A model generated the notes under the pieces. It was not told where the DNA came from, did no database searches, and saw nothing but the letters and a program-made list of their open reading frames with translations. The position numbers were made by a program, and so were the translations under genes. Shown one piece after another: positions 7,136 to 61,996 of a stretch of 64,000 nucleotides of DNA (the first letter of the stretch is position 1; the number at the start of each line of letters is the position of its first letter). This DNA comes from Chloroflexota bacterium (GTDB taxonomy: Bacteria > Chloroflexota > Anaerolineae > Anaerolineales > Anaerolineaceae), in contig CP069394.1 of the NCBI GenBank assembly GCA_016887485.1, forward strand, positions 2,294,001 through 2,358,000, written 5' to 3'.

Positions 7136-7207
7136 GGGCCCGTAGCTCAGCGGCAGAGCAGGCGGCTCATAACCGCTCGGTCGTAGGTTCGAATCCTACC
7201 GGGCCCA
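7136..7207 (+). tRNA. tRNA-Met (anticodon CAT)
   Basis: A 72-base cloverleaf: acceptor GGGCCCG/CGGGCCC, D-arm GCTC...GAGC, anticodon stem GGCGG/CCGCT with loop CTCATAA (anticodon CAT), and T-arm GTAGG-TTCGAAT-CCTAC. The discriminator is A and no CCA is encoded. CAT could also be the lysidine-modified tRNA-Ile2; the elongator Met assignment is by general resemblance. The 3' part is repeated at 8784-8809, marking it as an integration site. Confidence 0.9.
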
Positions 7208-8715: not shown

Positions 8716-8783
8716 ACTAATAGGGTTCCGTATAGTATCATTTCCATACAGTAATGGATATAAATTCTTATTCACTCGATCAA

Positions 8784-8809
8784 AGGTTCGAATCCTACCG
8801 GGCCCATGT
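8784..8809 (+). repeat. Direct repeat, right copy (attR-like)
   Basis: Exact 26-base copy of 7185-7210, isolated from any complete tRNA: the bases upstream are not a tRNA 5' half. It marks the right border of the island. Confidence 0.9.
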
Positions 8810-9204
8810 TTATCTTGTTGCTGAATAGCTTAATTGGTAAGTCCGGTATGCGCACCCTGTAGGATTTGTTATTTAATCAATATCAAAAAATCTAACTCTA
8901 GATTGCACCCGGAAGATTTTTCCATCTGTCTTTATAAAATTTTTTTGATTCTTACAAATAGTATCCTGTGTATCTTTCCCATCGGAGAATACCGGGATAT
9001 TTATTATTGATGATATAATTTTTTCATCGGGCATTATTTTATTGTTAGCGGAGGGATATAGATTTCTTAGGTTCTGTTTATCTTACTGAATCGCATTTAT
9101 TGTTATCTTCTATATGACCAATCCGGCCAATTACTCTTAAGTCTGTTAACGACCGTCAATGGTTGACAACACCGTTTTCAACTCAGCTAATATAGGAGAT
9201 TTAT
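8810..9204. other. Gene-free, AT-rich stretch with a tRNA-like fragment
   Basis: No credible gene. Bases about 8821-8866 read like a decayed tRNA 5' half (TAGCTTAATTGGTAAG resembles a D-arm), but no consistent anticodon or T-arm pairing follows. Near the right end TTGACA (9163-9168) with a poor -10 about 17 bases on (GCTAAT) may be the promoter of the gene at 9205. Confidence 0.3.
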
Positions 9205-17423: not shown

Positions 17424-17468
17424 GAGTCGCGGATTTTTTAGATTGCAGCATTTCAAGGTGAGGGTGAT

Positions 17469-18434: not shown

Positions 18435-18478
18435 GCAGGGTTAATGGTATGGATTCTATTGGAGAAAAAGGGGTCGCA

Positions 18479-25229: not shown

Positions 25230-27626
25230 ATGAACACAAAAGCGTTACATACCCTCGAATACTTGAAGATCATTGACCGGCTGGTGGACTATGCAGATTT
25301 TTCCGCCTCAGCCGATTTGGCGCGCCAGTTGACGCCCACCCCTGACCTGGAAGAGGCCAAGCTGCGCCAGGCCGCAACCCGCGAGGCGCGGCATATCCTC
25401 AGCCTGGATTCGGATGTTTCGTTCCAAATGGCACAGGATATCCGTCCGATGGTGGGACTGGCTCGGCGCGATGGGGTGCTGGAACCGGGGGATCTGCTCG
25501 CCATCCGCAATACCCTGATCGTGGCCCGCACCATCCGGCGCACGCTGGAGAATGTGGCCGCAGACGTCCCGAATCTGGTCAGCCTGGTGGATGGGTTACC
25601 GGTGGGGTTGGGGCTGGTGGACCTGATCGGCAAGACGATCTCGGACAGCGGTGAGGTGCAGGATTCGGCCTCGGAGAAGCTGGGTGAGATCCGCCGGGAG
25701 ATGAAGATCACCTTCGAGCGGATGATGGCCCGGATGCAGAAATACATCTCCGACCCCAATACGGCGAAAATGCTGCAGGAACCGATCATCACTCAACGCA
25801 ACGGCCGCAACGTGCTGCCTTTGCGGGCGGAATTCAAGGGGCGGATCAAGGCAGTGATCCATGACCAGTCGGCTTCGGGTGCAACCCTGTTCATCGAGCC
25901 GCTGGCTGTGGTGGAATGGAATAACCGCTACCGTGAGCTGGAGTTGGCCGAACGTGACGAAGTCCGCCGCATCCTGGCGGAACTGAGCCATTCGGTGGCG
26001 ATGTACGCGGACACTCTCAATATGATGGTGACGGTGCTGGCAGTGCTGGACCTGGCCTTCATGCGCGCCCGCTATGCCGATGACCTGGATGCCAGCGAGC
26101 CGCAGTTACGAGCTTTACCTGAAACACCAAAGGGTAAACACCCCGGCAGCACGATCCGGCTATACAAAGCCCGGCATCCGCTTCTGGACCCGAAAAAAGT
26201 GGTGCCGCTGGATATTGATCTGGATAAGGAAACCTATGCCCTGGTGATCACCGGGCCGAACACGGGTGGCAAAACTGTGACGCTCAAAACGATTGGCCTG
26301 TTGGTGCTGATGGCGCAATCCGGCCTGCAGATCCCTGCCCAATCCGGCTCGGAGTTAACCGTGTTTGAAGACGTCTTTGCCGACATCGGCGATGAGCAGT
26401 CCATTGAACAATCGCTTTCCACTTTCTCCGGCCATGTGACCAACATTGTGGAGATCCTCAAATCCGCTGACAGTCACTCGCTGGTGCTGCTGGATGAGCT
26501 TGGCGCAGGCACGGACCCGCAGGAAGGTTCCGCCCTGGCCCGCGCGGTGATGACCCACCTATTGGACCGCAGCATCACCAGCATGATCGCCACCCATTAC
26601 CCCGAACTGAAAGCCTATGCTCACGCCACGGAAGGCGTGTTGAATGCCAGTGTGGAATTTAACCTGAAGACTTTGCGCCCCACCTATCACCTGGTGATCG
26701 GCCTGCCGGGGCGTTCCAATGCGCTGGCGATTGCCGAGAGGCTAGGGCTGCCGGAGGAGATCATCGACTCAGCCCGGTCGGAGATCAACCCTGCGGACCT
26801 TAGGGCGGAGGACCTGCTGGATGAAATTCACCGCCAGCGAGACCTGGCGCGGCAATCCCGCGAGGAGGCTGACGAAGCCCGCCGCGAAGCCGAAGCGATC
26901 CGTAATGAGCTGGCGAACCGGCTGGATAAAATTGAGGATGAACGCTATGGCGTGCTGGAATCGGCCCGTGAAAGCGCCGAGAAAGACCTTGAGAGTTTGC
27001 GCGAGGAGATGGAGACGCTCCGCCGTCAACTGGTCAAAGCCCGCCAGCCGCTGGAGGCTGTGGACGAGGTGGAAGAGGTGGTGGAAGCGCTGGAAGAGGA
27101 AATCGCAGAGCCCGTTGTTCGCAAAACACCTTCAAAACCAGTGCGGAAGCCCAAAGGACCGTTACGCCTCGGCGAGAAGGTGCACCTGCGCTCAATTGAC
27201 CAGGACGGCGTCGTGACGGCTATTGGCGAAGATGAAGTGGAAGTGCAGATTGGTATGCTGCGCATCCGGGCGCGCCTGGGGGATGTGATCCGCAAGGGTG
27301 AGCCGGAACCTGAGACCGCGCCCAAGCCGAAAAAGCCCAAAGCCGGCCGGGTGATATTACCCAGTACTCAGGACTCGCCGGGCGTGGAGCTCGATATCCG
27401 CGGTCAGCGGGTGGATGAGGGGCTGGATGCCCTTGATCGTTATATTGAACGCGCCTATCTGGTAGGATTGCCATTTGTGCGGATCATCCATGGTAAGGGT
27501 ACCGGTCGCTTGCGCGATGCGGTCCGGGACGCCCTGACCGCTAACCCGCATATCAGCCGGATTGAATCCGGTGGACGGACGGAAGGTGGAGACGGCGTCA
27601 CCGTCGCGCATCTCAAGAACAATTAA
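25230..27626 (+). CDS. mutS2: Endonuclease MutS2
   Basis: A 798-residue MutS homolog lacking the mismatch-recognition domain, known for suppressing homologous recombination and rescuing collided ribosomes. The core and lever domains (1-320) precede the ATPase with Walker A GPNTGGKT at 342-349 and Walker B LLDELGAGTDP. A long charged coiled coil (about 515-625) leads to a KOW-like segment (LGEKVHLRSIDQDGVVTAI) and the C-terminal Smr nuclease domain, LDIRGQRVDEGLDALD and HGKGTG at 754-759. Both ends are intact. The start lacks a Shine-Dalgarno site, consistent with leaderless expression. A terminator follows. Confidence 0.96.
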   Translation: MNTKALHTLEYLKIIDRLVDYADFSASADLARQLTPTPDLEEAKLRQAATREARHILSLDSDVSFQMAQDIRPMVGLARRDGVLEPGDLLAIRNTLIVARTIRRTLENVAADVPNLVSLVDGLPVGLGLVDLIGKTISDSGEVQDSASEKLGEIRREMKITFERMMARMQKYISDPNTAKMLQEPIITQRNGRNVLPLRAEFKGRIKAVIHDQSASGATLFIEPLAVVEWNNRYRELELAERDEVRRILAELSHSVAMYADTLNMMVTVLAVLDLAFMRARYADDLDASEPQLRALPETPKGKHPGSTIRLYKARHPLLDPKKVVPLDIDLDKETYALVITGPNTGGKTVTLKTIGLLVLMAQSGLQIPAQSGSELTVFEDVFADIGDEQSIEQSLSTFSGHVTNIVEILKSADSHSLVLLDELGAGTDPQEGSALARAVMTHLLDRSITSMIATHYPELKAYAHATEGVLNASVEFNLKTLRPTYHLVIGLPGRSNALAIAERLGLPEEIIDSARSEINPADLRAEDLLDEIHRQRDLARQSREEADEARREAEAIRNELANRLDKIEDERYGVLESARESAEKDLESLREEMETLRRQLVKARQPLEAVDEVEEVVEALEEEIAEPVVRKTPSKPVRKPKGPLRLGEKVHLRSIDQDGVVTAIGEDEVEVQIGMLRIRARLGDVIRKGEPEPETAPKPKKPKAGRVILPSTQDSPGVELDIRGQRVDEGLDALDRYIERAYLVGLPFVRIIHGKGTGRLRDAVRDALTANPHISRIESGGRTEGGDGVTVAHLKNN

Positions 27627-32625: not shown

Positions 32626-34152
32626 ATGAAAAAGTCCAGTCTACATCTGATAGGGGTATTGTTGGTGTTAATGCTGGTCAGCCTGGCTTGCCGGCTGACA
32701 ACGGCAACCCCGGCTTCCTGGTCCGGCACGCCCACGGCTGAGGCCCGCAAGGCGACCAATGACGCGATCAATGCCACCCAGCAGGCTGCCATTGGGGAAG
32801 AGGTGCCCCTGCTGACCCCCACGGCAACAGAGGTCGTTGCGACGACCACGCCCCGCCCAACCGTCGCGGTCGATGGCCCCTGGCTAGTCTTCCCGGCACC
32901 TGACGATCCGGGCCTGCTTTTGGCTTATGATGTGGACGCCGGCGTGACTTTGGAGATCTCCCTGCCTGCGCCAATCTATACCTCCGACCTGATCAATGGA
33001 CTTTCTCCTGATGGACACACCTTGATCGTCCGGGCGGGCTCGCCTTTGAACACAGATGAATTTGCGCTCTATCAGATTGACCTCCCTTCCACCACGGTCA
33101 CCAAGCTGACACCCTTGCTGAGCCTGGTTGTGCAGCGGAAGATCGTGAATGAGGAAGGCACCCGTGCTTTTGACACCCTGCGAGCGGTCACCCGCGAGGA
33201 TGGGCTGGCCTGGTCACCGGATGGGCGATACCTGGCTTTTACCGCCGCTTTGAACGTCACCTCGAGTGATCTCTATCTCTGGGATTCGACCACAGGCAGT
33301 ATTGAACGGCTGAATGGGCTCTATTCCCACAGCGCGTCACCTTTCTGGTCCCCCAGCGGCAACTGGTTGATCACTCAGGAATTGGGCGATTACACGGAAG
33401 AAACCGGGTGGCGTTCGGAGGTTGTGACCGGGGTGAGCGTTCCCGGATTTGATAACCAGAACTCACTCTATCTGCCATCTCCCGGCAGCCAGGGAGAGGT
33501 TTTCATTGGCTGGCTGAACGCCCAAACGATGATGAGCTATTCCCAGACGGCGGATGGACCGTTCGAGCTGCGTCAGGTCAATGTGGATTCGCTGGCGGAG
33601 AGCGTTCTGCTGGGTGGGGCGTTCCGTTTGGCGGCTCTTGACCCCAATGCGCCATCCTATGCTTTTATCTTGGATGAAAGCCAGGCTGTTGAGAAGAATA
33701 TGTTGAGCGGGGTCTATCTGGTGGCAGCCGGCAGCGCGGTTAGGTCACTGCAGATGGTGGGGGATTGGTCCGGGCTATATGCTGAACCGAATGACCTGTT
33801 CATTGCGGTGGGCGTCAAAGGGCTGATCGGCTTTTCAGCCAATGGCAGCGGTTTTTCGCTTTCGGATGAGCGGATGGCGAGTGTTTCCCCCAGCGGGAAC
33901 TGGATGGTGGCCTGGGGCACGGAGGAGGGTGGTGAAAGCGGTGCCCGGCTTTATCAGAGTACCAGAGGCACGATCCTGCAAACCCTGACGGACCTGCCGG
34001 TTCGGGATGTGGTTTGGCAGCCTGATTCAATGGCGTTCTATCTGACCACTGAGGATTCGATCTATCGGATGGCATTTCCGCAGCTATCACTGGAGTTTAT
34101 CGCCGGTGGCTTTGATCCGGAGAACCTGCCTGTGATCACCTGGGTGGAATGA
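32626..34152 (+). CDS. Beta-propeller lipoprotein
   Basis: A 508-residue lipoprotein: signal peptide with lipobox LMLVSLAC (Cys22), Thr/Pro-rich linker (PTATEVVATTTPRPT), then a repeated beta-sheet region with TolB/WD40-like propeller units: LAWSPDGRYLAFTA, FWSPSGNWLIT, VSPSGNWMVAWG and VVWQPDSMAFYLTT. Such proteins bind partners outside the membrane; none is identifiable. It starts 14 bases after pcrA and may be cotranscribed. Fragments of its 3' end occur twice downstream (39830-40027 and 41959-42074), joined to nadK 5' sequence, so this gene flanks the insertion hotspot. Confidence 0.82.
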   Translation: MKKSSLHLIGVLLVLMLVSLACRLTTATPASWSGTPTAEARKATNDAINATQQAAIGEEVPLLTPTATEVVATTTPRPTVAVDGPWLVFPAPDDPGLLLAYDVDAGVTLEISLPAPIYTSDLINGLSPDGHTLIVRAGSPLNTDEFALYQIDLPSTTVTKLTPLLSLVVQRKIVNEEGTRAFDTLRAVTREDGLAWSPDGRYLAFTAALNVTSSDLYLWDSTTGSIERLNGLYSHSASPFWSPSGNWLITQELGDYTEETGWRSEVVTGVSVPGFDNQNSLYLPSPGSQGEVFIGWLNAQTMMSYSQTADGPFELRQVNVDSLAESVLLGGAFRLAALDPNAPSYAFILDESQAVEKNMLSGVYLVAAGSAVRSLQMVGDWSGLYAEPNDLFIAVGVKGLIGFSANGSGFSLSDERMASVSPSGNWMVAWGTEEGGESGARLYQSTRGTILQTLTDLPVRDVVWQPDSMAFYLTTEDSIYRMAFPQLSLEFIAGGFDPENLPVITWVE

Positions 34153-34312
34153 GGGGGACGAACGGGGGGATAAACGGTCAATTCCCTATAGGCCATAATT
34201 TTACACTTTTTCCACGAATAGTTACCCCTACCTTGTTCTTTCAAGTAAATAAAGAGTTGCAGTTAATGGGTATATCCCTGAAACCAGGTCTTAAAATACC
34301 ACAGAATCACTA

Positions 34313-34363
34313 TTGACTTATACTATTTTTATGATATACTTCATATATAATGAAGTATATCAT
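34313..34363 (+). promoter_or_regulatory. Promoter overlapped by a 33-base perfect palindrome
   Basis: TTGACT (34313-34318) and TATACT (34335-34340) are 16 bases apart. ATGATATACTTCAT (34331-34344) and ATGAAGTATATCAT (34350-34363) are perfect 14-base inverted arms around ATATA, covering the -10 box and the start site. This is the strongest operator-like signal of the accessory block; the winged-helix protein at 35214 in the same operon is the obvious candidate binder. Confidence 0.8.
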
Positions 34364-34384
34364 ACAGCAAAAGAGAGGTAACCC

Positions 34385-35200
34385 ATGTTTTTTGAAAGAA
34401 AAACCAAAGATTCTAGCGTTCTGAAGATAATCTTGTTCCCAATTGGATTGATCGCTATATTTTTAACTGTAGCCTCACTGGCTGGATTTGGTCCTGCCTT
34501 ATATATGATTGGTGTAATGTACTTTTTTATATCAGTGATGCCTTTCATCACCTTCCTGAGGACACGGAATGCCGGGTTTTTGGCAGTGACCTTATTTTCG
34601 ATTTTTACGTTTCTGGTTTGTGTCAGCGCTCCTTCTGCCATTAAAGATAAAAGCCAGATAGATCTAATTCCCCTTTTCCTGGTTGGTATGTATATCTCCT
34701 TGATGGTGGTCGCTTACCTAACCTTCAACAGGAAACTCCGCTGGAGAGGACAGGAGATCTTTGAGCTGGCTGCACTTCCCATAGAAGATACCGGGGATAG
34801 CTTCTCTGCCCGTCCCCGTCCAACCGGACAGGTACCCATCAGTAAAACCGAAATGATCCGGTTTGTTGATTTTATGACCAAAAATTTACTTGCCTTCGCT
34901 TTTCGAGAAGACAACCGGGTCATTTTTGTGCTGGCCTTACCCGGAAAGGATACTCCTTATTTGCTTGGTTTAAAAAAGGATTATCTAGAGGATACCTGGG
35001 TCGCGATTGATTTTGACGGCAATATATCGGTAAATATTACTGAAAAAGATTATTTACTCTTCAAAATGGATTTGGATTTCGATCAACTCTGCCAATCCCT
35101 AGGAAATCTGATTCGTGAATTTCTGGAATTATCCAAAAACGGACAGGAATCTCAAATCATTGAAAAAATGAATGCCCTGCGTTTAAACCCTTTCATGTAA
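34385..35200 (+). CDS. Membrane protein with a cytoplasmic C-terminal domain, paired with a winged-helix protein
   Basis: A 271-residue protein with four membrane helices in the first ~125 residues (FPIGLIAIFLTVASLAGFG, LYMIGVMYFFISVMPFI, FLAVTLFSIFTFLVCVSA, LIPLFLVGMYISLMVVAYL). The cytoplasmic domain of ~145 residues contains SKTEMIRFVDFMTKNLLAFAF and LPGKDTPYLLGLKKDY. Ribosome site AGAGAGG. It is followed after 13 bases by the winged-helix gene, and both lie behind the large palindrome. A membrane sensor acting with its regulator is a reasonable hypothesis; no known family is recognised. Confidence 0.68.
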   Translation: MFFERKTKDSSVLKIILFPIGLIAIFLTVASLAGFGPALYMIGVMYFFISVMPFITFLRTRNAGFLAVTLFSIFTFLVCVSAPSAIKDKSQIDLIPLFLVGMYISLMVVAYLTFNRKLRWRGQEIFELAALPIEDTGDSFSARPRPTGQVPISKTEMIRFVDFMTKNLLAFAFREDNRVIFVLALPGKDTPYLLGLKKDYLEDTWVAIDFDGNISVNITEKDYLLFKMDLDFDQLCQSLGNLIREFLELSKNGQESQIIEKMNALRLNPFM

Positions 35201-35213
35201 CATGAGGTGCTTG

Positions 35214-35807
35214 ATGGATTATCAAACTGCTGCAAAATTAGGAGCTTCCCTTTCAAAAGAGTACGCTGAGGATTTTTTTAAGCTATTGGCAAACTATCAG
35301 GATATTTCAGCCTCCGAAGCTGCCTCCAGACTCAATTTACATATACGGACAGCCCAGGATTTCCTGGATGCTCTAACAGACCTTGAGATAGTTAAGAAAA
35401 CTGAAGTTTTTGAAAAGAAGAGACCTTACTTTCGCTTCACACTGATCAAACCAAAAATATATCTCGAACTGGATCTGACTGAATTCGAAAAGGATAACCC
35501 GGGGGAAGGTTTAACCCGCTTAGTGCGTGAGAAAAAAGACAAAGACGCGAACTTTTCAGTAGCTCGCTCTGGTGATAGCTTCAGCGGTGTTACGATCTGG
35601 GAAGGTGCAGGGAGGGAGCGAAAAGAACACAAGATCAGCCTGACAACTCCCCAGGGGAAATTTCTATTCCACCTGCCTTTTCCCAAGGCAAGACCGATGA
35701 CAATTGCTGATATCATGGAGAAATCCGGTGTAGAACCAGATTATTCCACAGAAATTCAGGATATCGTAGATGAATTAATTCGGTTAGAAGTCATTGAAGT
35801 TCTCTGA
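35214..35807 (+). CDS. Winged-helix DNA-binding protein
   Basis: A 197-residue protein. Residues ~10-75 form a winged helix (ISASEAASRLNLHIRTAQDFLDAL; wing VFEKKRPYFRFTL), resembling MarR/ArsR-type readers. The rest is a beta-rich middle (SLTTPQGKFLFHLPFP) and a second small helical unit TIADIMEKSGVEPDYSTEIQDIVDELIRLEVIEVL that looks like another winged-helix half. GAGGTG four bases upstream supports ATG 35214 over ATG 35202. Being last in an operon under a perfect palindrome, autoregulation is the simplest role. Confidence 0.7.
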   Translation: MDYQTAAKLGASLSKEYAEDFFKLLANYQDISASEAASRLNLHIRTAQDFLDALTDLEIVKKTEVFEKKRPYFRFTLIKPKIYLELDLTEFEKDNPGEGLTRLVREKKDKDANFSVARSGDSFSGVTIWEGAGRERKEHKISLTTPQGKFLFHLPFPKARPMTIADIMEKSGVEPDYSTEIQDIVDELIRLEVIEVL

Positions 35808-36362
35808 AAGAGGCGCACCGGAAATCTCCAATTGCCAGGTGACAAGACAAAGGCAAAAAACTCCTACTTAGGAGCATGAGACATGAGAAAAAACAAATTG
35901 ATAATGAACAATATTCACCCCTGAGTCTGCCATTGAAGCATGATCTCAAATGCATCTCTTTTTAACACCCCACAGTAAAAGGGTTCAAAATTACAAGGAT
36001 CAGACCAGATCCTGGACCTGATATGACCTTTAGGCAGTTCGAACCAACAACTGAGTGGATAAAGGCTAGTCATCGACTCGGATATTAAAATAGGATCCAA
36101 TCAATCGGGATACCTTTTTTCCAAATATGACACCCAATGTAATTCATTTTCCGATTCTGCAAGTCAACCTGTTCTGATCAAGGATTGCCAGTTTCGTTAA
36201 ACAAACCTTCAATGACAACTGGATAAGCCTTTCCAAGATACAAGAGCGTATATCTTGTTATTATCCTAACCACATCACATGGGCTCGACACGCGCCCTTC
36301 GAATGGTCCGAACCGCTAACCGAGCGCAAATCAAAATATTTCTAATATTATCGAAATTCCTT
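35808..36362. other. Gene-free stretch of 555 bases
   Basis: AT-rich with short open frames lacking ribosome sites. CTCCTA-ct-TAGGAG (35861-35874) is a small hairpin preceded by six A, so on the minus strand it looks like a weak terminator. Nothing else is seen. Confidence 0.3.
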
Positions 36363-37022
36363 CTATTCCACAACCAGCAGCGGTTCAAGCTCAAGCAGAT
36401 CCTTGGTGAACAACTCCAGGTCAATCAATCCGGTTTCAGGGTCCCGCGCAAGGCCCGAAATAATCAGTTCCAGCCGGCGGGGCAGGCTGAGGGCTAAATC
36501 GGCGTCCACTTCCTCGATAAAGGGTTGCAGGTCTTCAAGGTTATCCTGGGTATCCGCCAGCGCTGCCTGAGCACCCTCTATATTTTCTAAGAAAAGTTCG
36601 ATACGGGCGGTGTTGACATCCACCAAAACCTGGTAGAATTTCATATTTGCTCTGGCAGCAATTAATTCCTCTTCCAGGGCGACAATCTCATTCTCGGCGT
36701 CTTGATTGGCGGTTGTCAGGCGAGCGTTTTCTTGCTCAAGGTCGTCCAATTCCAGATTTGCCTGTTCCAGTTCGACTTTGGTTTGCTCCAGCTCTTTGGA
36801 AAGGGGACTGTAACGGACAAAATGGTTTGTGAGAAAACCAGCAAAAAAGATGGCAGCGACAATCGACAAGCCGATCAGGCCCTTGCGTAAAAAGCGCACA
36901 AATTTACTAGGGGGTTGTTTTTCGGACCTTTTATCCTGGTCTTGTTTTTTAACTTCGGCCGAATCCGATGTTACCGGTTCAGGCTGTGATTCCGGTTGGA
37001 AGGCTTCGCTTTTCTCGTCCAT
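36363..37022 (-). CDS. Single-pass membrane protein with a periplasmic/extracellular coiled coil
   Basis: A 219-residue protein: a charged, disordered cytoplasmic start (~45 residues), one membrane helix (GLIGLSIVAAIFFAGFL), then a long Leu/Glu coiled coil (LEQTKVELEQANLELDDLEQENARL) and a helical C-terminal domain ending ELEPLLVVE. No enzymatic motif. The design resembles small structural or regulatory envelope proteins. Ribosome site AGAGAAGGA upstream on the minus strand. It is part of the accessory block; neighbours give no clue to function. Confidence 0.65.
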   Translation of the reverse strand: MDEKSEAFQPESQPEPVTSDSAEVKKQDQDKRSEKQPPSKFVRFLRKGLIGLSIVAAIFFAGFLTNHFVRYSPLSKELEQTKVELEQANLELDDLEQENARLTTANQDAENEIVALEEELIAARANMKFYQVLVDVNTARIELFLENIEGAQAALADTQDNLEDLQPFIEEVDADLALSLPRRLELIISGLARDPETGLIDLELFTKDLLELEPLLVVE

Positions 37023-37312
37023 TTCTTTTTTCCTTCTCTAGTATTGAGCTTTAATAAGAAAATTAATACCCAAAAATTAACAGGGGTTATTAATATGCGT
37101 AACAGTTGTGAAACTAAAGTGAAATTACTTTTTAATTGTACCTGCGATTATATGTAATTTGTAAGCCCGGTACCACTTCGGGTAGTTCTACCTAAGAACG
37201 AACGAATAAGACATTGATTTCATTTGTTTAAAAAAAGTGATACGAGCTGAGAATATTTGATCATGGGTTAACACTGATTTTCCATTTTTTAATAAATTAT
37301 TGTGACTCCAAT

Positions 37313-38485
37313 TCAGAACCATTTCCATCTAGCCTTGTCAACAGCTCGGCCTTTCCATGTGATGCGTCCTTCCAGGGTATGGATCAAGGAGCGAAAAGCA
37401 ACGCAAATGTTTGCAAGGACTGTGTAAGGATAGAAGAAAGAAAGATAGAACGGGATTTTCATTTCAAGATACGGAATAAGCCAAAGCAGATAGGATAATG
37501 CTATACAAATCATTAGGACATAAGGTTGAGCCTTAAGCGTTCCACAAAAGACCAGTAATGCCATCACAAACAATGGCTCCCAAAACATAATGAATAGCCA
37601 TAGGTAAGTGAACAGGTAAGGAAGTAAACGATAACCGGAGGCTGCAAATAGATTTTTTGTGAATCCGTTTACTGCTTCTCGGCTTGAATGATACATCCGG
37701 CAGGCAATCAAATCGGCCACATAAGTCACTCTCCAACGCAGCCCTTTTTCGTTAATTCTTCGAGCTAAACTGATATCATCTACGACAGAAGAGATAATGC
37801 CATCATGTCCACCAATATCCAAGTAGGCTTCACGGCGGAATAACATCATCTGTCCAACTGCGACAGAAAGAAAAGGCACCTTAAGTTGATAGGCTAATAA
37901 TAGAGGGACAAAGGAAAGGAACGCCCAGGAAAAGAATGGCACCAGTGCCTTTTCGCCCAAGGTATGAATTTCTTGCTTGGGAAAACCAGTAATTAAATCT
38001 GCTTGCGCACCTAATAACGCAGTGACAACCGTTTTTAATGTATCTGGTCGGGCGACCGTATCGGCATCTGTAAAAAACAACAACTCACCTTGTGCCTGAT
38101 GGGAAAGCTGACTGCATGCCCAGTTTTTCCCAACTTGACCATGAGTGGGTTGCACCCCAAGTATGATTCGCAGGTTGGGTTCGGAAAGTGCAATCGTTTC
38201 TAGGATGGCTCTTGAGGCATCGTTTGATTGATCATCAAGCACAATTACCTCAAAGGAAGGATAATCCTGTCCAAGGTAAGATTGAACACAACCGGCTATG
38301 CAACTCTCCTCGTTGCGAACTGGGATAAGAATGGAGACCACAGGAAATTTCTCTGTTGGAGAATAACGCCGGATGCGGTGAGTGATCCAAATATTGCTTA
38401 ATAGAATCAGCAAAAGGACCAACTGAAAGAAGATAATATGGTCGATTAAGGTGACCGTTAAATAATCAACCAATATTGAAATCAT
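37313..38485 (-). CDS. Membrane-bound family 2 glycosyltransferase
   Basis: A 390-residue GT2 enzyme. An N-terminal helix anchors the catalytic domain, which starts VVSILIPVRNEE and has the nucleotide-binding DDQSND (84-89), the metal-binding DAD (140-142) and the acceptor-side VVDDISLARRI (234-244, a change from the common ED). Four C-terminal helices follow (LFTYLWLFIMFWEPLFVMALLVF and others). This layout fits transferases acting on lipids, such as carotenoid or hopanoid-type glycosyltransferases. It overlaps the plsY-like gene by four bases (ATGA), linking it to lipid synthesis. Confidence 0.82.
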   Translation of the reverse strand: MISILVDYLTVTLIDHIIFFQLVLLLILLSNIWITHRIRRYSPTEKFPVVSILIPVRNEESCIAGCVQSYLGQDYPSFEVIVLDDQSNDASRAILETIALSEPNLRIILGVQPTHGQVGKNWACSQLSHQAQGELLFFTDADTVARPDTLKTVVTALLGAQADLITGFPKQEIHTLGEKALVPFFSWAFLSFVPLLLAYQLKVPFLSVAVGQMMLFRREAYLDIGGHDGIISSVVDDISLARRINEKGLRWRVTYVADLIACRMYHSSREAVNGFTKNLFAASGYRLLPYLFTYLWLFIMFWEPLFVMALLVFCGTLKAQPYVLMICIALSYLLWLIPYLEMKIPFYLSFFYPYTVLANICVAFRSLIHTLEGRITWKGRAVDKARWKWF

Positions 38486-39090
38486 GATTTTTTATTCGAG
38501 AACAACTTTGATATCCATGGGCGAAGGTGGATGCCCTTGCGCAGATCATTTCGGTGAGTCCATCCCAGGATAAGAACTTCACCGAACCAAACGGCAAGGA
38601 AAAGTGGCTCAGGCAGCCAAAGAAAGAGTACCGCCAAGATTCCACTCAACCCAAGGATTGCAGACCAACCTGGAGGCGTAAAAAGCGCTATCCCTATCAC
38701 TGCCCCCAGAACCGCTGGGATGGATAGTTTCCAAATGGTTAGCCCTATCCAGACACCCAGAGCGGTCGCCAATGCTTTACCGCCATGGAAACGGAGGAAA
38801 GGTGAAAAAACGTGCCCAAGGATTGGCGCGACCGCAATCAGCAGCATGGGCAGACCTCGTATTCCAAAATTAAAATAAGCCCAACCGACCGGAACAGCGG
38901 CTTTGCTGACGTCTAACACCAAAGCTAAAAGACCGACCCATTTATTTCCAGTCTTGAAGGCATTAGCCGCACCCGGATTGCCATCACCAAACTTTCTTAC
39001 ATCCTCGCCAAGCAGGATCTCTCCTAACCAAACTGAAAACGGAAAAGAGCCGAAAAGAAATGCCAGGGGGATAAAGGCATAGGGAAGCAT
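38482..39090 (-). CDS. plsY: Glycerol-3-phosphate acyltransferase PlsY-like
   Basis: A 202-residue membrane acyltransferase that makes lysophosphatidate from acyl-phosphate. The three PlsY motifs are visible: GSFPFSVWLGEILLGEDVRKFGDGNPGAANAF in the first loop, GHVFSPFLRFHGGKALATALG in the second (HGGKA where most have KGGKG), and ILGWTHRNDLRKGI in the third. About six helices. The altered second motif and the location in an accessory block suggest a second, specialised copy, cotranscribed with the GT2 gene to build a glycolipid; that role is inference. Confidence 0.85.
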   Translation of the reverse strand: MLPYAFIPLAFLFGSFPFSVWLGEILLGEDVRKFGDGNPGAANAFKTGNKWVGLLALVLDVSKAAVPVGWAYFNFGIRGLPMLLIAVAPILGHVFSPFLRFHGGKALATALGVWIGLTIWKLSIPAVLGAVIGIALFTPPGWSAILGLSGILAVLFLWLPEPLFLAVWFGEVLILGWTHRNDLRKGIHLRPWISKLFSNKKS

Positions 39091-39346
39091 GTAAGACGAT
39101 CCTTTTTTGAGCCGACCTAAATGCTAAAAAAACAACTTCTTAATTTATTGTAATATGGAATGGCGTAATTATCGCATGGTATGCTGATAAATCATGGGAT
39201 TATTATTATTAATTAATTGGACTAATAACCCTGACCTGTGGGAAGGTCGAGCTTTTGCCCGAGCGGTTATGCTTTCAAATTAATTTTAATTGTCTTTCTT
39301 TTCTAATATTACAGCACAGGATCAGCCCTTTGCCTTCAAGCCTATT

Positions 39347-39775
39347 CTAAACTGACCCCCGCATCATACACCAAAATGATAACTGATATTTTGGTATGCA
39401 AGCCGTATGTAAAAGGTCAAAACCATGTTTCTGATAGTACCGAACATTTTTCTCATCATGGGTTTCGAGATAGATTGGCATTTTTTGGGCATCGGCCTGG
39501 GCCAAAAGTGGTTGCATGAGCGCTGAACCAATGCCTAGGGATTTTTTGGCGGGCTCAACAGCCAGACCCCACAGATAATAATGCGGGCGGTTTTTCATTA
39601 ACGCGATGTGTGTAGCGCCAACAAAATTCTCACATTCCATGGAGCGCATATAGTTGCGAAGGCCCAGGCGCCCTTGATATTGAGCGTGAGCGTGGCAGCA
39701 CTCTAACCCACAACCAGCCTGTTTTGTCCGCTTACTGAAAACGGCCATAATTTGGGCGATATGTCCCAACTGCAC
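39347..39775 (-). CDS. GNAT acetyltransferase, 5'-truncated (probable pseudogene)
   Basis: The C-terminal ~100 residues of this 142-codon frame are a typical GNAT: FVGATHIALM, LWGLAVEPAKKSLGIGSALMQPLL (acetyl-CoA loop), MPIYLETHDEKNVRYYQKHGF and LSFWCMMRG. The N-terminal ~70 residues expected for this kind are missing. Instead the frame runs into the nadK-like promoter sequence of the composite scar (from about 39735), so the first ~15 codons are antisense to that scar and have no ribosome site. The scar thus appears to have cut off the 5' end of the gene. Confidence 0.6.
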   Translation of the reverse strand: MQLGHIAQIMAVFSKRTKQAGCGLECCHAHAQYQGRLGLRNYMRSMECENFVGATHIALMKNRPHYYLWGLAVEPAKKSLGIGSALMQPLLAQADAQKMPIYLETHDEKNVRYYQKHGFDLLHTACIPKYQLSFWCMMRGSV

Positions 39776-40027
39776 CCATCCCCCAAAAGATCGCCGTTTT
39801 GGCCAATCCAGTCATTGACTAATGTTGGACTCTATCAGATTGAACTCGCGGGCTGGCTGAACCCCTAATTCATGGTGAACTTTTAATGGACAGCGGATGG
39901 AGCGGTGGGGTTACGGCAGGTCAAAGTGGTTTCGATCTATCGGGTCGCGTTTCCGCAGCTATCGCTGGAATTTATCGCCGATGGATTTGACCCGGAGAAT
40001 CTGGCCGTGATCACCTGGGTGGAGTGA
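39735..40027 (+). pseudogene. Composite scar A: nadK promoter and 5' end joined to the 3' end of the beta-propeller lipoprotein
   Basis: 39735-39818 matches the nadK start region: GGCCATAATTTGGGCGATATG, then the first codons (ATG at 39761) nearly base for base except one lost C, a frameshift. From 39830 it matches the lipoprotein gene: CTCTATCAGATTGA (as at 33067), GGCTGGCTGAAC (as at 33508), and from 39932 the final ~96 bases with about 12 differences by eye, ending at the equivalent TGA. Homology continues past the stop. It is not translatable as either protein. Confidence 0.85.
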
Positions 40028-40161
40028 GGGGAGTATCAAGCGGATAAATATTTTTTTCCACCTTGGCAAACAGAATATTAATCCTGATCAATAGGACTTA
40101 ACTATTTTTGTCAGGACTGAAAAAATTAATCAAGAAATTTTGCCCTCATAATTTAAGAAAA

Positions 40162-40815
40162 TTATTTTCCCGTAAATGGTATTTGATACTGCGCTGGATT
40201 AAGAATACAAATGACGATTTTCCCGTTTCGAAGATGGAGTAACGCCGTTCCATTTACGCCATCCCCCCATTCCCAGGCGAAAGCAAGTGTATTATCCCCA
40301 ATCATTAAGGGATCCCCAAGAATAATGAACTCCTGACTACGGTCACCATGTATTGTTGCCAAACGGATAAATTCTTGCTCATCTACTCGATCAGCCAAAT
40401 GACTGGTATCATCCGTCATTATGGCGTCATGGACATTGGATGCCGTTGTCAATACACCGTCATCAGTAAAAAGCGCTCTCACCTGTTCATAATCCCCACT
40501 TTCAAAAGCAGCCTTGAAATTAGAAATAATTAATTCTGATCCATTAGAATAATTAGCGGTTTCTTGTTCCGTTGGCTTCACAATCTCTTCACATGATTGT
40601 GTTGTTTGAACAATGGGTGTTGATGATCTTGCATCTAATAACTCATTTTCTAACGTTTTCACTCGGTTCCGCTCAGAATATCCCCAAATCAGTGATCCAG
40701 CAAATAAAACCGACGTTATAAAGGAAAAAGCTAAGATCCAACGATTCGGTCTTCTTTTTTCCTGCTGTTTGTTAGTAGAAGGGTCAGAAATCTCATCAGG
40801 ATTATTTGCAGGCAT
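40162..40815 (-). CDS. Membrane-anchored protein with an NTF2/SnoaL-like domain
   Basis: A 217-residue protein: cytoplasmic polar start (~25 residues), one membrane helix (WILAFSFITSVLFAGSLIWGY), a short coiled linker (RVKTLENELLDA), and from about residue 95 an SnoaL-like alpha+beta cone: IISNFKAAFESGDYEQVRALFTDDGVL, then AFAWEWGDGVNGTALLHLRNGKIV. Such domains bind small ligands or serve as scaffolds. AAGGAG precedes the ATG on the minus strand. Role unknown. Confidence 0.68.
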   Translation of the reverse strand: MPANNPDEISDPSTNKQQEKRRPNRWILAFSFITSVLFAGSLIWGYSERNRVKTLENELLDARSSTPIVQTTQSCEEIVKPTEQETANYSNGSELIISNFKAAFESGDYEQVRALFTDDGVLTTASNVHDAIMTDDTSHLADRVDEQEFIRLATIHGDRSQEFIILGDPLMIGDNTLAFAWEWGDGVNGTALLHLRNGKIVICILNPAQYQIPFTGK

Positions 40816-41394
40816 CTCTACTCCTTAAATACACTAAATTGTCAATAAAAGGCTTTTTATTCCGAAAAGATATGAATTGCTTGGCCCGAGAACAGTTAGG
40901 AAGCAGCTTTAGAAAATGCGGTGAATTTATTTGGGATGGGAAGCAAGGATTTCGTCAATATTAATTATATAAAGAAAAAATAGGGAAACGCAAGCCTGTA
41001 AAATAAAAAGGAAAGGAAACCATTCGGAAAAAGTATCAACCCATTGGGATTGTGTTCTCGGATTTTAGAAAAAGAGAATCAGATAGTCCTCTTGGGGATC
41101 AAGTTATCATAACCAATATGTGATAACATAAAAATGATAAGAATTTAGCCAAGTTGTGCAGTTTGGGCCATAGACAATATCTTCTTATATAAGGATCGCC
41201 GGTATTGGTGATCGACCTTCCATTATCTTTCACCAGGCATCTCCCTAAAAATTCCCTTGCAGAGTCCTTTGCACAACCAATGACTATATTGGTCTAATAA
41301 TGCCCACATACTTATAGATTAAGCCTCTATTACTATAAATAATTAGCGTCTTACAAGCAGGAAAATTATCCTCAAACTGGTGGAAGGATTAGAA
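40816..41394. other. Gene-free AT-rich stretch with one inverted repeat
   Basis: No credible gene in 579 bases. GTTATCA (41103-41109) and TGATAAC (41121-41127) form an inverted repeat with an 11-base spacer that could be a regulator site for the HEAT-repeat gene. Confidence 0.3.
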
Positions 41395-41802
41395 ATGTCC
41401 CCAAGTGAAAATGTTAGCGAACTGGCGAAAGCGTTATCTCATCAGGAGCGGAGTGTTCGGATAAATACTGTCCTTGCGCTTAAAAAGATTGGCAATTCAG
41501 ATGTTGTCGATCCACTGATCGAAGCCATGAAAGATCAGGATTTTGGTGTACGGGCTTTTGCTGCAGAAGCTCTTGGAGAAATCGGAGATCTGAGAGCGTT
41601 AGAGCCACTGATACATGCTTTGAATGACGCGAATTATGGCGTTCGACGAGATGCAGCGACAGCACTTGGTGCATTAGGTGATGAGCGAGCAGTAGAGGCA
41701 CTCACAAGAGCCATGAAACGTCACGATACTGGTTTTTGTTACGAAGATGACCGTGTCTATGAGGAAACAAAAAAGGCTCTGGAAAAAATCCAGGGGAATT
41801 GA
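41395..41802 (+). CDS. Small HEAT-repeat (PBS-lyase type) protein
   Basis: A 135-residue protein of about three and a half HEAT-like repeats: VRINTVLALKKIGNSDVVDPLIEAMKD, VRAFAAEALGEIGDLRALEPLIHALND, VRRDAATALGALGDERAVEALTRAMKR, and a partial last unit. These form a helical solenoid for protein binding; related repeats occur in phycobilisome lyases and in many uncharacterised proteins. ATG 41395 follows GGAAGGA; the in-frame GTG at 41380 overlaps that site. It is near-complete and GC-richer than its surroundings. Confidence 0.82.
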   Translation: MSPSENVSELAKALSHQERSVRINTVLALKKIGNSDVVDPLIEAMKDQDFGVRAFAAEALGEIGDLRALEPLIHALNDANYGVRRDAATALGALGDERAVEALTRAMKRHDTGFCYEDDRVYEETKKALEKIQGN

Positions 41803-41859
41803 ACACCGTTTATTCAGAGTGTGTCCTGCTGTGTGAGAAAATTCACGCCCATTTGGTTC

Positions 41860-42074
41860 ACCTACTGAAAACGGCCATAATTAGGGCAATATGTCCCAAC
41901 TGCACGCGTCACCCCAAAATAACGCCATTTTAGCGAATTTGGTCATTGATTAATTTGGGCTCTAGTAGATTGCCCCCCTCTGGCTGATTACACACTCAAA
42001 CGATGATGAGCTATTCCTAGGATGCCGGTGGCTTTGACCCGGAGAATTTGCCCGTGATCACCTGGGTGGAGTGA
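41860..42074 (+). pseudogene. Composite scar B: second nadK 5'-lipoprotein 3' relic
   Basis: Same build as scar A but more decayed. CTACTGAAAACGGCCATAATTAGGGCAATATG (ATG at 41891) matches the nadK promoter/start. The junction GTCATTGATTAAT...GGGCTCTA parallels scar A (GTCATTGACTAAT...GGACTCTA), and ACGATGATGAGCTATTCC and the ~50-base end to TGA at 42074 match the lipoprotein gene. The shared junction shows both scars descend from one rearranged sequence. Confidence 0.8.
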
Positions 42075-42125
42075 GGGTGTTATCCGAGCGGATAAATTCG
42101 CTTCTCCTATATGGCTAATAATTTT

Positions 42126-42380
42126 CTAAAAATATTCGCCTTCTTCCGGAGTGAAATCTAAAGAATCGCCAAATGCTTGAATGTCGACAATAGGTGTTAC
42201 CCAGCACCTGCAATTATCACATTCTGACATCAAACTCTCAACCTCATCAAGAAGAAATTCCTTTTCTGATCTAGATCTACAAATGTCACAAACGAAGTCG
42301 TCATTGACAGTATGCCACTTTACAGACCTAATGCATCCCCCTTCTCTCCATTCATTCACTAAATCATGCAATTCTGGCAT
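42126..42380 (-). CDS. MuF-like zinc-binding mini-protein
   Basis: An 84-residue protein with VKWHTVNDDFVCDICRSR followed by ECDNCRCWVTPIVD. This Cys pattern (CxxC ... CxxCxC) and the wording strongly recall the C-terminal segment of phage head morphogenesis (Mu gpF/SPP1 gp7) proteins, where the NCRC motif closes a zinc-binding unit, here without the rest of that protein. GGGAGT lies before the ATG on the minus strand. It may be a phage-derived fragment kept as a small protein; function unknown. Confidence 0.6.
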   Translation of the reverse strand: MPELHDLVNEWREGGCIRSVKWHTVNDDFVCDICRSRSEKEFLLDEVESLMSECDNCRCWVTPIVDIQAFGDSLDFTPEEGEYF

Positions 42381-42450
42381 TTTGACTCCCTACTTAAAAT
42401 ATGAGGGTTAGGAAATGATATGAGTTGAGAATGTTAGACCAAACAACAAT

Positions 42451-43161
42451 TTACATCATGTGTTGATTATAATCTGTGGATGAATTCGCCCCCGTAATTA
42501 TATCTTTAGGATCTAGGCGTATACATCCAGCATCTTCAGGAGAAAATTCTCTTGGCCAATTGGTTTTACTATCATAAGTCGCATTCTTCCAGCAAGTCTT
42601 ACTGTTGTAGATTGCATCTGTAAAATCTGTCCCCGACAGGTGAGATTCTTCAAAAGATGCACCTTCAATATGTGCCCTGATAAATTTACACCCTTCCAGG
42701 TGAGCCTCATCAAAGACAGCATTAATAAGAATAGCTTCTACAAATATCGCTCTTTCGAGGTGGGCTTTCTTTAGGACTACATTTTCAAAATTTACCTTAC
42801 TCAAATCTATTTCTTTTAAAACAGAATATGACAATTGCGCATTAACCATCGAGCCATCAGTTAACCATTCCTTATTTTTGGCCTGATAGTATGCATCAAT
42901 TGAGAAGTATTTTGAGGGGTTGCCTAGATTTCTAAGTATTCTGCGTTTTTCCTCCCGCTCAAGGTATTTATGAGTAATGAAATCAAGGACAAGGATTGTA
43001 AAACCCATACCAATAAGTTCCGGATGAACATTAACAAGAAGATCTTGCCAATCTAAATTATTAGAAAAAAGCGTACAAAAATATGGACTTAACCCAAAGC
43101 CGAGGAGAACAAATCCTAAGAAAGCAATTATCCATTTCCAACAATTCGAATTACTATTCAT
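42451..43161 (-). CDS. Pentapeptide-repeat membrane protein
   Basis: A 236-residue protein with two N-terminal membrane helices (WIIAFLGFVLLGFGL; ELIGMGFTILVLDFI), a basic coiled segment (KYLEREEKRRIL), and about fifteen pentapeptide units from ~105 to 185 (VNFEN VVLKK AHLER AIFVE AILIN AVFDE AHLEG), which stack as a four-sided helix. C-terminus is polar. The frame is AT-rich. Pentapeptide-repeat proteins range from gyrase protectors to membrane-associated adaptors; the membrane anchor favours the latter. Confidence 0.78.
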   Translation of the reverse strand: MNSNSNCWKWIIAFLGFVLLGFGLSPYFCTLFSNNLDWQDLLVNVHPELIGMGFTILVLDFITHKYLEREEKRRILRNLGNPSKYFSIDAYYQAKNKEWLTDGSMVNAQLSYSVLKEIDLSKVNFENVVLKKAHLERAIFVEAILINAVFDEAHLEGCKFIRAHIEGASFEESHLSGTDFTDAIYNSKTCWKNATYDSKTNWPREFSPEDAGCIRLDPKDIITGANSSTDYNQHMM

Positions 43162-43214
43162 AACAACCCCTTTAGAATTCTATCCAATAATGCTATCGAG
43201 ATCGGTTTTTTAAA

Positions 43215-43418
43215 CTATTGTTTTGTCTCGCTTTTAAGATATTCGACCAAATCATCCTCATGTCCCAACCTACTAGCAATTATTTCAGACGAATTTATGA
43301 TCATTTCAGTAGGGTCAAACTCTGCAAGTTGTTTGATTAGATCGATAGCTAGTCTCTTAAGCTCTTCCCTAGATATCTGCTCAAAAAACATTTGCATTTC
43401 AATACTTAAATCATCCAT
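43215..43418 (-). CDS. Small acidic hypothetical protein
   Basis: A 67-residue helical protein (FFEQISREELKRLAIDLIKQLAEFD; HEDDLVEYLKSETKQ). No clear ribosome site and no known family. It follows the XRE relic on the same strand and may be part of that former gene cluster. Confidence 0.45.
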   Translation of the reverse strand: MDDLSIEMQMFFEQISREELKRLAIDLIKQLAEFDPTEMIINSSEIIASRLGHEDDLVEYLKSETKQ

Positions 43419-43437
43419 TCGTATTGTTACAATTTCT

Positions 43438-43600
43438 TCATAAAATGGTGGGGGATAAAAATAAGTTAAAAAGCTTCTTCAAATGGAATGTGAGTAAACC
43501 TAAAGTACTTGTATTCGGTTCAGATTTCCCATTCTCAATATCCGAAAACGTTTGTTGATGAAAAAACTATATTCCACATAGCCTACTAAATTATATATCC
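43438..43600 (-). pseudogene. XRE-type helix-turn-helix regulator relic
   Basis: On the minus strand 43560-43438 reads HQQTFSDIENGKSEPNTSTL and continues LGLLTFHLKKLFNLFLSP to a stop, which is the recognition helix and following part of an HTH_3 domain. Upstream bases to ~43600 give GYVEYSFF in a different frame, so the start of the domain is frameshifted and no start codon remains. It is too short for a functional repressor. Confidence 0.6.
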
Positions 43601-43738
43601 TTTTTCTCTTGCCGTTCCCAAAATGTCGTAAACATTAATTATTCTTACGTACATTGCCCAATCGAAAAATGCTCAAAGATTAGCCCGTCTAGGCTTTAAC
43701 CTCCACCCATGCAATTTGGTCCGCCAACTAAAAGCGGC

Positions 43739-43744
43739 TATAAT
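43739..43744 (+). promoter_or_regulatory. -10 box of nadK (leaderless layout)
   Basis: TATAAT ends nine bases before the nadK ATG with no ribosome site between, implying a leaderless transcript. The same segment is preserved as CATAAT in scars A and B. Confidence 0.5.
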
Positions 43745-43753
43745 TAGGGCGAT

Positions 43754-44641
43754 ATGTCCCAACTGCACTCATCCCCCCAAAAGATCGCCGTTTTGGCCAA
43801 TCCGGTCATTGCGGATTCCCTCCTGCTGGCAGAAGATGTTGCCGAATTCCTGCGCGCTGAGGGTGCCGAGGCTGCTGCCGGTTCGTTGAACGATCCGGAC
43901 CTGCGCCAGGCTGTTCAGGCACAGGAATTTGACGCGCTGATCGCTCTGGGTGGGGATGGCACGATGCTGCGGGCCGGTCACCTTTGCGCTCCGGCGGGGA
44001 TTCCCCTGTTGGGGATCAATGTGGGGCATTTCGGTTTCCTGGTGGAGGTCAAGCGGGAGAGCTGGCGCGATATGCTGCCCAAGCTGCTCTCGGGCGATTT
44101 CCGCTATGAAGAGCGGATGATGATTCTGGCGCGCTGCTCCCGACAGGGCTTTGAAGAGACCGCTTTTGACGTGATCAATGATGTGGTGGTGGCCCGGGGA
44201 CGGCATGTGCGCCCAATTGAGGTGGAAGCTGACCTGGAAGGCGCCCGAATCGCCAGATATAGCGCAGATGGGCTGATTGCGGCCACGGCTACCGGCTCCA
44301 CGGCCTATGCCCTGGCTGCCGGCGGACCCATCCTGCCGCCCGAATCGCGTAATATCCTTCTGGTACCGGTTGCGCCGCACTTATCCGTGGACCGCGCTGT
44401 GGTTTTGGCGGAAGGCGCGTCAATTTGCATCACCGTCCGCACAGAGCATGAGGCTGTGGTCAGCGTGGACGGGCAGGAGCCCCTGACGATGGCCAGCGGC
44501 GACTGTGTGCAGGTGCGGGCCCATGAGAAGTCCCTGCATATGATCCGCTTTCAGGACCCCGGTTATTTTTATCGCAACCTCACAGCCTATATGGAACATA
44601 ACCCCTTATTAAGTGTAAAAGCCAATGGAAAATTCAACTGA
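43754..44641 (+). CDS. nadK: NAD kinase
   Basis: A 295-residue ATP-NAD kinase that makes NADP. Motifs: LIALGGDGTML (GGDGT with the catalytic Asp), PAGIPLLGINVGHFGFL, DVINDVVVARG (NE/D motif), and YSADGLIAATATGSTAYALAAGGPIL, which carries the conserved active-site residues. It lies upstream of a zinc-ribbon membrane protein with a 17-base overlap and recN, so the three likely form one operon. The start region is duplicated in two scars upstream, and the intergenic space before it is where the accessory block sits. Confidence 0.95.
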   Translation: MSQLHSSPQKIAVLANPVIADSLLLAEDVAEFLRAEGAEAAAGSLNDPDLRQAVQAQEFDALIALGGDGTMLRAGHLCAPAGIPLLGINVGHFGFLVEVKRESWRDMLPKLLSGDFRYEERMMILARCSRQGFEETAFDVINDVVVARGRHVRPIEVEADLEGARIARYSADGLIAATATGSTAYALAAGGPILPPESRNILLVPVAPHLSVDRAVVLAEGASICITVRTEHEAVVSVDGQEPLTMASGDCVQVRAHEKSLHMIRFQDPGYFYRNLTAYMEHNPLLSVKANGKFN

Positions 44642-61723: not shown

Positions 61724-61968
61724 CCCCTCATCCGACGCTCTGCGTCACCTTCCCCCCAGGGGGAAGGCTTGTTCAGTTTTCGTAGGTCACGCTTCCAGCA
61801 GGACGAAAAAAGTCCCGCAGGTTCACCCTTGCGGCTTCACCATGCGTGACCAACGTTTAAAATTTATCATGTCACGTGCGCGGCTTTGCCGCGGCACATG
61901 ACCTACAAGGGTTTCGAGTTGCTATAGGGGCGGGGACTGCCTGCCTCCCTTGGGAGCTGTATCCGCCC
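61724..61968 (+). repeat. Large intergenic repeat, copy 1
   Basis: Contains in order a CCTCATCCGACGCTC box, a GGGGGAAGG box, GTAGGTCACGCTTCCAGC, CTTGCGGCTTCACCATGCGT, a palindrome GTCACGTGCGCGG-ctttg-CCGCGGCACATGAC, CAAGGGTTTCGAGTTGC and a GGGGCGGGGACTGCCTGCC end. The same order recurs at 61997-62274. Confidence 0.8.
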
Positions 61969-61996
61969 AGTAGAGGGTTTGATTAAACAAGGATAT

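Follow-up and report, generated by a model that had tools for sequence, protein, structure and literature searches.

Cassettes of a tRNA-Met(CAT) family probably occupy a tripled tRNA-like site between a lipoprotein gene and nadK in an Anaerolineaceae genome

How do foreign genes come to lie at a chromosomal spot that is not a tRNA gene, and with no recombinase gene among them? The question is raised by a locus of a Chloroflexota bacterium of the Anaerolineaceae (genome G000), in which three cargos of accessory genes lie between a lipoprotein gene (Lp) and nadK. We analyzed this locus within a window of 64,000 nucleotides (G000:C1:2294001-2358000, part of a 2.7-Mb contig) and compared it with 60 other genomes, the genus of G000 being represented by 16 genomes including its own. 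As an original prediction made from the letters of the window had proposed, the parts run in the order Lp, cargo 1, scar A (39701-40049), cargo 2, scar B (41851-42097), cargo 3 and nadK, the two scars each joining the beginning of nadK to the end of Lp (nadK'::'Lp), and the cargo is accessory and AT-richer, with a GC content of 0.415 in the block versus 0.533 and 0.538 in its flanks. In the reading that we prefer, with a probability of roughly 0.78, the block consists of cassettes of a tRNA-Met(CAT) family that entered a tripled tRNA-like secondary site, each copy of the site receiving its own cassettes.

Lp stands directly before nadK, without cargo, in 15 of the 15 same-genus relatives, as had been expected, with 54-90 nt from the last Lp codon to the first aligned nadK residue including the stop codon; in G018, a genome outside the genus, we found nadK without a neighboring Lp. 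The junction is occupied in only 1 of the 16 genomes and is not the genus-wide hotspot that had been suggested, arrays being seen instead at glnS-tRNA-Met(CAT). Both scars aligned significantly to both genes (E 2e-17 to 1e-33 for nadK and the best Lp pieces). Scar A matched the nadK promoter and start (E 1e-33, 100/118) and Lp in three pieces (E 1e-33, 9e-11 and 0.003), and scar B matched nadK (E 6e-25, 81/98) and Lp in two pieces (E 2e-17 and 1e-7), with less of Lp left in scar B, the more decayed of the two. In both, nadK up to 43811 is joined to Lp from ~33055, and a second joint runs from Lp ~33085 to 33508. They also have derived bases in common when polarized by G009, the nearest relative (two in the nadK part, one in the Lp part); one of the shared changes turns the -10 box TATAAT into CATAAT, while the true nadK keeps TATAAT. 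Private changes are present as well, scar B alone agreeing with G009 at two nadK sites and scar A alone at one Lp site. Because the scars share joints and derived bases such as CATAAT, they would most simply go back to one ancestral joint that was copied once more, in line with the single rearranged ancestor originally envisaged.

The tandem duplication of the original prediction is thereby upheld, but duplication of the whole Lp-nadK unit followed by deletions inside the copies is not needed. Both scars show the end of one unit joined to the start of the next, as in a simple tandem duplication, and the Lp and nadK frames are intact; the smallest sufficient event would be the tandem duplication of ~1.2 kb bounded by nadK codon ~20 and Lp codon ~145, a single step that creates the joint without damage to either gene. 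By eye, almost no bases are in common at the nadK::Lp joint. Searching G000 with scar A returned six places at E <= 1e-7, all at this locus (scar A, scar B twice, Lp twice and nadK), and four further places outside it at E 0.49-0.91. This search bears on the most durable of the alternatives, in which imprecise excision produced a circle carrying nadK'::'Lp and cassettes, much as in a prime plasmid, that re-entered Lp-nadK twice by homologous recombination with different cargo. Such a history would yield the same order of parts and agrees with the one joint that scars A and B have in common, and the replication initiator of a G010 element described below could let circles persist; however, G000 holds no further scar copy, viral contigs gave no exact match to the joint, and more steps are required, so that we regard it as unlikely.

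The preferred reading is supported by the left edges of the cargos (termed W, A and B for cargo 1, 2 and 3). All three cargos start at the identical spacer position with the kind of cassette end that G010 and G013 also have; the original prediction left this common starting base unexplained, and each cargo in fact starts with an end of the tRNA-Met(CAT) family. The tRNA repeats of G010 end in CGAGCGGATAA(A), which is near-identical to the cargo starts after the Lp spacer: B matches it exactly, A with one mismatch and W with two, and a G010 copy at 9059 has one mismatch. For a 52-nt profile of five G010/G013 sites, the top three window matches on both strands were the left edges at 34166, 42085 and 40037 (E 1.5e-5 for W, 0.011 for B and 0.047 for A), the next match having an E of 0.18. 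Since a 12-mer of this very locus had served to locate these five sites, omitting the 12-mer makes the cleaner test; arm-only placed scores without it, taken as the best of three placements on the + strand only, put W in the top 0.00002, B in the top 0.00008 and A in the top 0.001 of window positions. An end model (R1) run over the 16 genus genomes gave just these three left edges below E 1 in G000, with the three G000 sites included in its construction and the best 150 of 1555 first-look candidates scored. Two lone model matches lie elsewhere: the one at G013:C6:236208 looks like chance, and the one at G001:C140 has no tRNA on its fetched contig.

In pairwise tests (nine comparisons per arm, P uncorrected), arm W and arm B each matched G013_8956 (P 0.001 in both cases) and arm A matched G013_10005 (P 0.004). 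Arms A and B are unrelated to each other (P 0.50-0.58), in contrast to the sister scars A and B. Because these arms are unrelated and each has its counterpart among the known cassette ends of another genome, insertion probably took place after duplication. Two earlier candidates at the edges were abandoned: an 11-nt nadK promoter remnant in the left edge of cargo 1 was dropped given the cassette-end homology, and similarity of the edges beyond the spacer, pursued before the tRNA lead, was not convincing (best P 0.01-0.03 among 12 comparisons).

We further observed attachment sites inside cargo 1. A profile of the tRNA half plus arm, built from 10 sites of five genomes other than G000 (R1 had supplied some of these sites), matched the window below E 0.5 at the tRNA itself, at its 8749-8812 copy, at 36011-36065, at 37158-37224, at the three left edges, and at 36276 and 39233, and three shuffles gave best E values of 0.74-3.1. 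The matches in the island all have one orientation and the four internal ones are intergenic, splitting cargo 1 into a cassette of a membrane protein gene (memA) and a winged helix-turn-helix gene (wHTH), a 0.2-kb piece, a coiled-coil gene, GT2-plsY and a truncated GNAT gene. The relic at 36011 aligned at 25/30 (E 9e-5) in a targeted comparison and is the best tRNA-half match in the window outside the masked tRNA places (score 28). Element ends are found at 3/3 left edges, with arm A the weakest, whereas the right edges comprise one good, one weak and one absent end, and two of the internal relics are clear and two marginal. In many attachment repeats (L161, L162, L103, L059) a ~12-nt GC-rich insert like CGCCCTGCGGGC lies inside the tRNA T stem; it was seen in G007, G010, G012 and G013, and the 36011 and 37158 relics retain it in degenerate form.

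The original prediction of a tandem Lp-nadK duplication with decayed copies, when read with accessory genes building up by chance in a neutral stretch, starts from real scars and a real Lp-nadK adjacency, and the stretch from Lp to the nadK promoter should be free of constraint after a duplication; this reading nevertheless predicts neither a common start base with one family of ends nor tRNA-fragment sites between cargo genes, and we consider it very improbable. That a single large cargo entered once and that the whole unit was then tripled, each copy losing different genes, would account for identical edges without three insertions but is scarcely credible, as the three cargos have no residual similarity above shuffles and arms A and B are unrelated.

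The primary site of the cassette family lies behind glnS. Copies of the 3' half of the tRNA follow glnS-tRNA-Met(CAT) in G007 (one), G010 (five), G012 (five), G013 (two near the tRNA) and the window (one), this locus having been viewed in five genus genomes only, four of which came up via model or cassette matches. In G010, the memA-wHTH cassette is flanked by tRNA-Met(CAT) 3'-half repeats of 47 and 51 bp, one of them diverged, so that the same element is found at the tRNA of a relative for one cassette; distant relatives of two further cargo genes sit in the G012 array. Because the cassette has 90-92% DNA identity to G010 and G013, where it lies elsewhere in the genome, versus 68-72% in pcrA, nadK and recN (glnS, 79-80%), it is by its sequence a recent transfer. 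In G010, the first element carries genes for a tyrosine recombinase (PF00589, E 6.7e-9) and a Rep_trans protein (E 1e-12); no plasmid relatives of this integrase-Rep stretch were found by blastn. Of the 61 genomes, 18 (with G010 among them) have matches to the recombinase, and 15 recombinase loci with flanks of up to 1.5 kb held tRNA-Met(CAT) in four cases (G010, G019, G028, G039), tRNA-Asn in one (G025), tRNA-Gly in one (G049) and no tRNA in nine, while a longer stretch of G018 has tRNA-Met(CAT) ~1.9 kb from the recombinase.

When the flanks of each cargo are joined, the rebuilt spacers measure 55-56 nt from stop to start codon, or 58-59 nt with the stop codon versus 54-90 nt in relatives. 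The B-N spacer CCGAGCGGTT-TGGTCCGCC resembles the tRNA stretch CCGAGCGGTTATGAGCCGCC (P 0.001; 0.0016 against the window), and the native spacer of G009 matches the tRNA anticodon stem-loop (P 0.001; 0.003 against the window). Anticodon stem-loops are a known site of tyrosine recombinases (PMC8371274). In the spacer before nadK, the -10 box TATAAT lies ~9 nt before the start codon (43739-43756) and, by eye, at a similar distance in the spacers of 15 relatives; the short distance suggests that the nadK mRNA may be leaderless or nearly so.

We propose the following history. In the lineage of G000 and G009, the short spacer from Lp to the nadK promoter resembles the tRNA-Met(CAT) anticodon stem-loop. 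An illegitimate tandem duplication of ~1.2 kb, which joined nadK codon ~20 to Lp codon ~145, would have copied the spacer with Lp and nadK unharmed, after which the joint may have lost part of Lp, the promoter box mutated and recombination yielded a third copy of the spacer. We infer that a tyrosine recombinase of the family, acting in trans from elsewhere, then put circular cassettes into every copy of the spacer at its CCGAGCGG core, immediately 5' of the nadK promoter. Cargo 1 would have lengthened as further cassettes entered its own attachment site one after another, with fragments of the tRNA left as relics between them.

Several observations weigh against this history. Two arm-only hidden Markov models built without the 12-mer ranked W first, but at E 0.18 and 0.35, and placed neither A nor B among the 14 best. 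The rebuilt W-A spacer matches the tRNA moderately (P 0.011) and the A-B spacer not at all (P 0.13), and the spacers of G011, G013 and G015 (3 of 14 other relatives) reach P 0.03-0.05 without inserts. The relics at 36276 and 39233 are individually below significance (E 0.35 and 0.49). The right edge of cargo 1 (score 26) shares second rank in the window with an unrelated stretch at about 26751-26828, that of cargo 2 before scar B has no tRNA half (P 0.92), and that of cargo 3 before nadK is weak (P 0.013). The G013 site beside the memA cassette lacks a tRNA half, and G000 has no integrase of the G010 type, other integrase types not having been searched genome-wide.

More generally, a chance tRNA-like stem-loop in the spacer of two protein genes might serve as an attachment site for recombinase-free cassettes, with tandem duplication of the spacer multiplying the landing places and producing an integron-like block that can capture a resident chromosomal gene type such as the coiled-coil gene; we offer this generalization tentatively. 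If true, it would account for foreign genes at a non-tRNA spot without a recombinase gene, through a tRNA look-alike site and recombinase-free passengers, it would offer a testable route for the founding and growth of new islands, and it would supply a sequence profile for finding such cassettes in a poorly studied group; duplication of an attachment site that spares both flanking genes would be a simple way to widen the room for foreign genes.

Known systems share some of these traits. Cis-mobilizable elements (CIMEs) keep attachment sites, have lost integration genes and stack in tandem at a target such as a tRNA gene by insertion into a neighbor's site (PMC5704250). The block likewise appears to be a tandem stack of elements that kept attachment sites, seen at all left edges but less regularly at the right ones, and it has no recombinase of its own, with no recombinase family in the 10 cargo proteins scanned and no G010-type integrase in G000; unlike CIMEs, the stack lies in a spacer between protein genes, with the landing site tripled by an unrelated tandem duplication. 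Salmonella genomic island 1 (SGI1) has a secondary attachment site between sodB and purR with tandem arrays (PMC2297512), so that there, too, a site-specific island has a further site in the spacer of two chromosomal genes, but those are arrays of one island, whereas here the cassettes differ, the block has no recombinase and its site is similar to the anticodon stem-loop of a tRNA. As in additive flexible genomic islands (PMC5217437, PMC10872708), cassettes are added singly; those islands use another tRNA in another phylum, while the present block lies away from a tRNA. In tycheposons, given as 4-200 kb in PMC10872708, cargo adjoins tRNA genes including tRNA-Met together with a tyrosine recombinase, as in this cassette family, whereas the cassettes here are ~0.2-2 kb without their own recombinase and the block is away from a tRNA; the block is thus not a large element with its own tyrosine recombinase beside a tRNA gene. 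Nor does it have an integron intI: the G010 integrase scored 22.9 bits against a cut-off of 265 for the integron-integrase model and 52.1 bits against 220 for NF040815, and the sites of the block match the tRNA 3' half. In the library searched, no paper joins Anaerolineaceae, integrase, genomic island and tRNA, and the titles and abstract beginnings of literature on secondary attachment sites and duplicated attB mention no tripled tRNA-like site.

Table 1 Features of the Lp-nadK block and of the primary site in the window; E values for cassette ends and internal relics are from the tRNA-half-plus-arm profile
Feature	Position	Strand	Evidence or remark
tRNA-Met(CAT) following glnS (5096-6784); primary site of the cassettes	7136..7207	+	
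Cassette next to this tRNA, with frames of 71 and 251 aa	7208..8772	+	
Second tRNA 3'-half copy with arm	8749..8812	-	E 1.1e-7; profile E 3.7e-6
Intact Lp, short TolB-like stretch	32626..34152	+	TIGR02800 E 2.9e-7, 29.8 bits vs cut-off 343
Lp-nadK spacer, left half, copy W	34153..34169	.	
Cassette end (attachment arm), left edge of cargo 1 (W)	34158..34206	+	E 8.2e-5
Cassette 1a: memA 34385-35200, winged helix 35202-35807, third-gene remnant	34175..36010	+	
tRNA(CAT) 3'-half attachment relic	36011..36065	+	E 1.4e-8
Marginal attachment relic	36276..36326	+	E 0.35
Cassette 1c: coiled-coil membrane protein	36363..37022	-	
tRNA(CAT) 3'-half attachment relic, long variant	37158..37224	+	E 1.2e-6
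Cassette 1d: GT2 glycosyltransferase and PlsY-like acyltransferase	37313..39090	-	
Marginal attachment relic	39233..39281	+	E 0.49
Cassette 1e: GNAT acetyltransferase without N-terminal part	39347..39667	-	
Cargo 1 right edge, tRNA(CAT) 3'-half remnant	39686..39719	+	P 0.0007 over window
Scar A, nadK' part: promoter (CATAAT) and ~19 codons, frameshifted	39721..39817	+	
Scar A, 'Lp part and spacer left half	39818..40043	+	
Cassette end, left edge of cargo 2 (A)	40037..40088	+	E 0.003; weakest of three
Cargo 2: weakly SnoaL-like membrane protein (40162-40815 -), HEAT protein (41380-41802 +)	40049..41850	.	
Scar B, nadK' part	41851..41948	+	
Scar B, 'Lp part and spacer left half	41949..42091	+	
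Cassette end, left edge of cargo 3 (B)	42085..42136	+	E 0.0018
Cargo 3: MuF-like fragment 42126-42380, pentapeptide membrane protein 42451-43161, 67-aa frame 43215-43418	42097..43710	-	
Cargo 3 right edge, weak tRNA 3'-half remnant	43683..43713	+	P 0.013 over window
Spacer right half and nadK promoter TTGGTC-17-TATAAT	43714..43753	+	Promoter read by eye
Intact nadK	43754..44641	+	

Among the cargo genes, the coiled-coil gene is present in 12 of the 15 same-genus relatives, and its only match in G000 is the copy in the block. At eight loci in other genomes (seven of the genus and G020), five have immediate neighbors in common, G012 shares a block 2-3 kb away, and no attachment sites were found near the gene. 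As the gene is common in relatives without such sites and confined to the block in G000, it is an ordinary chromosomal gene at the relatives' loci examined, a resident gene type that was captured or replaced in G000. The G013 memA-wHTH cassette has a third gene (L060 6272-7120, 282 aa, no Pfam family), the start of which persists as a remnant in G000 from ~35880; a JAGHAU contig with memA at 67% identity had no attachment site that we could find. A phage origin was considered and rejected, with no memA relative found and no exact match in viral contigs to the scar joint or to a 25-nt attachment sequence.

The GNAT gene is cut at about the right edge of cargo 1, the frames of G028 and G037 having 207 and 223 aa, with similarity from residue 16 of 121. 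The pentapeptide protein of cargo 3 has its best match among the 60 other genomes in the G012 array (31%, E 6e-20), which also holds HEAT-repeat genes, better HEAT matches lying outside such arrays; for the weakly SnoaL-like protein these 60 genomes gave no relative, and the MuF-like fragment scores below the Pfam cut-off. A role in defense was tried and is not claimed because the PADLOC matches are only partial: the winged helix to Csa3 (2.8e-4), the coiled coil to LmuB/JetC (1.6e-4 or weaker) and the HEAT repeats to HEAT-ARM_XIII (2.4e-11, over just 103 of 1972 positions). Elsewhere in the window, a pair of 210-bp repeats that are 89% identical lies at 61759-62274, and 17017-18945 contains internal repeats (149 and 263 bp, 66-75% identity).

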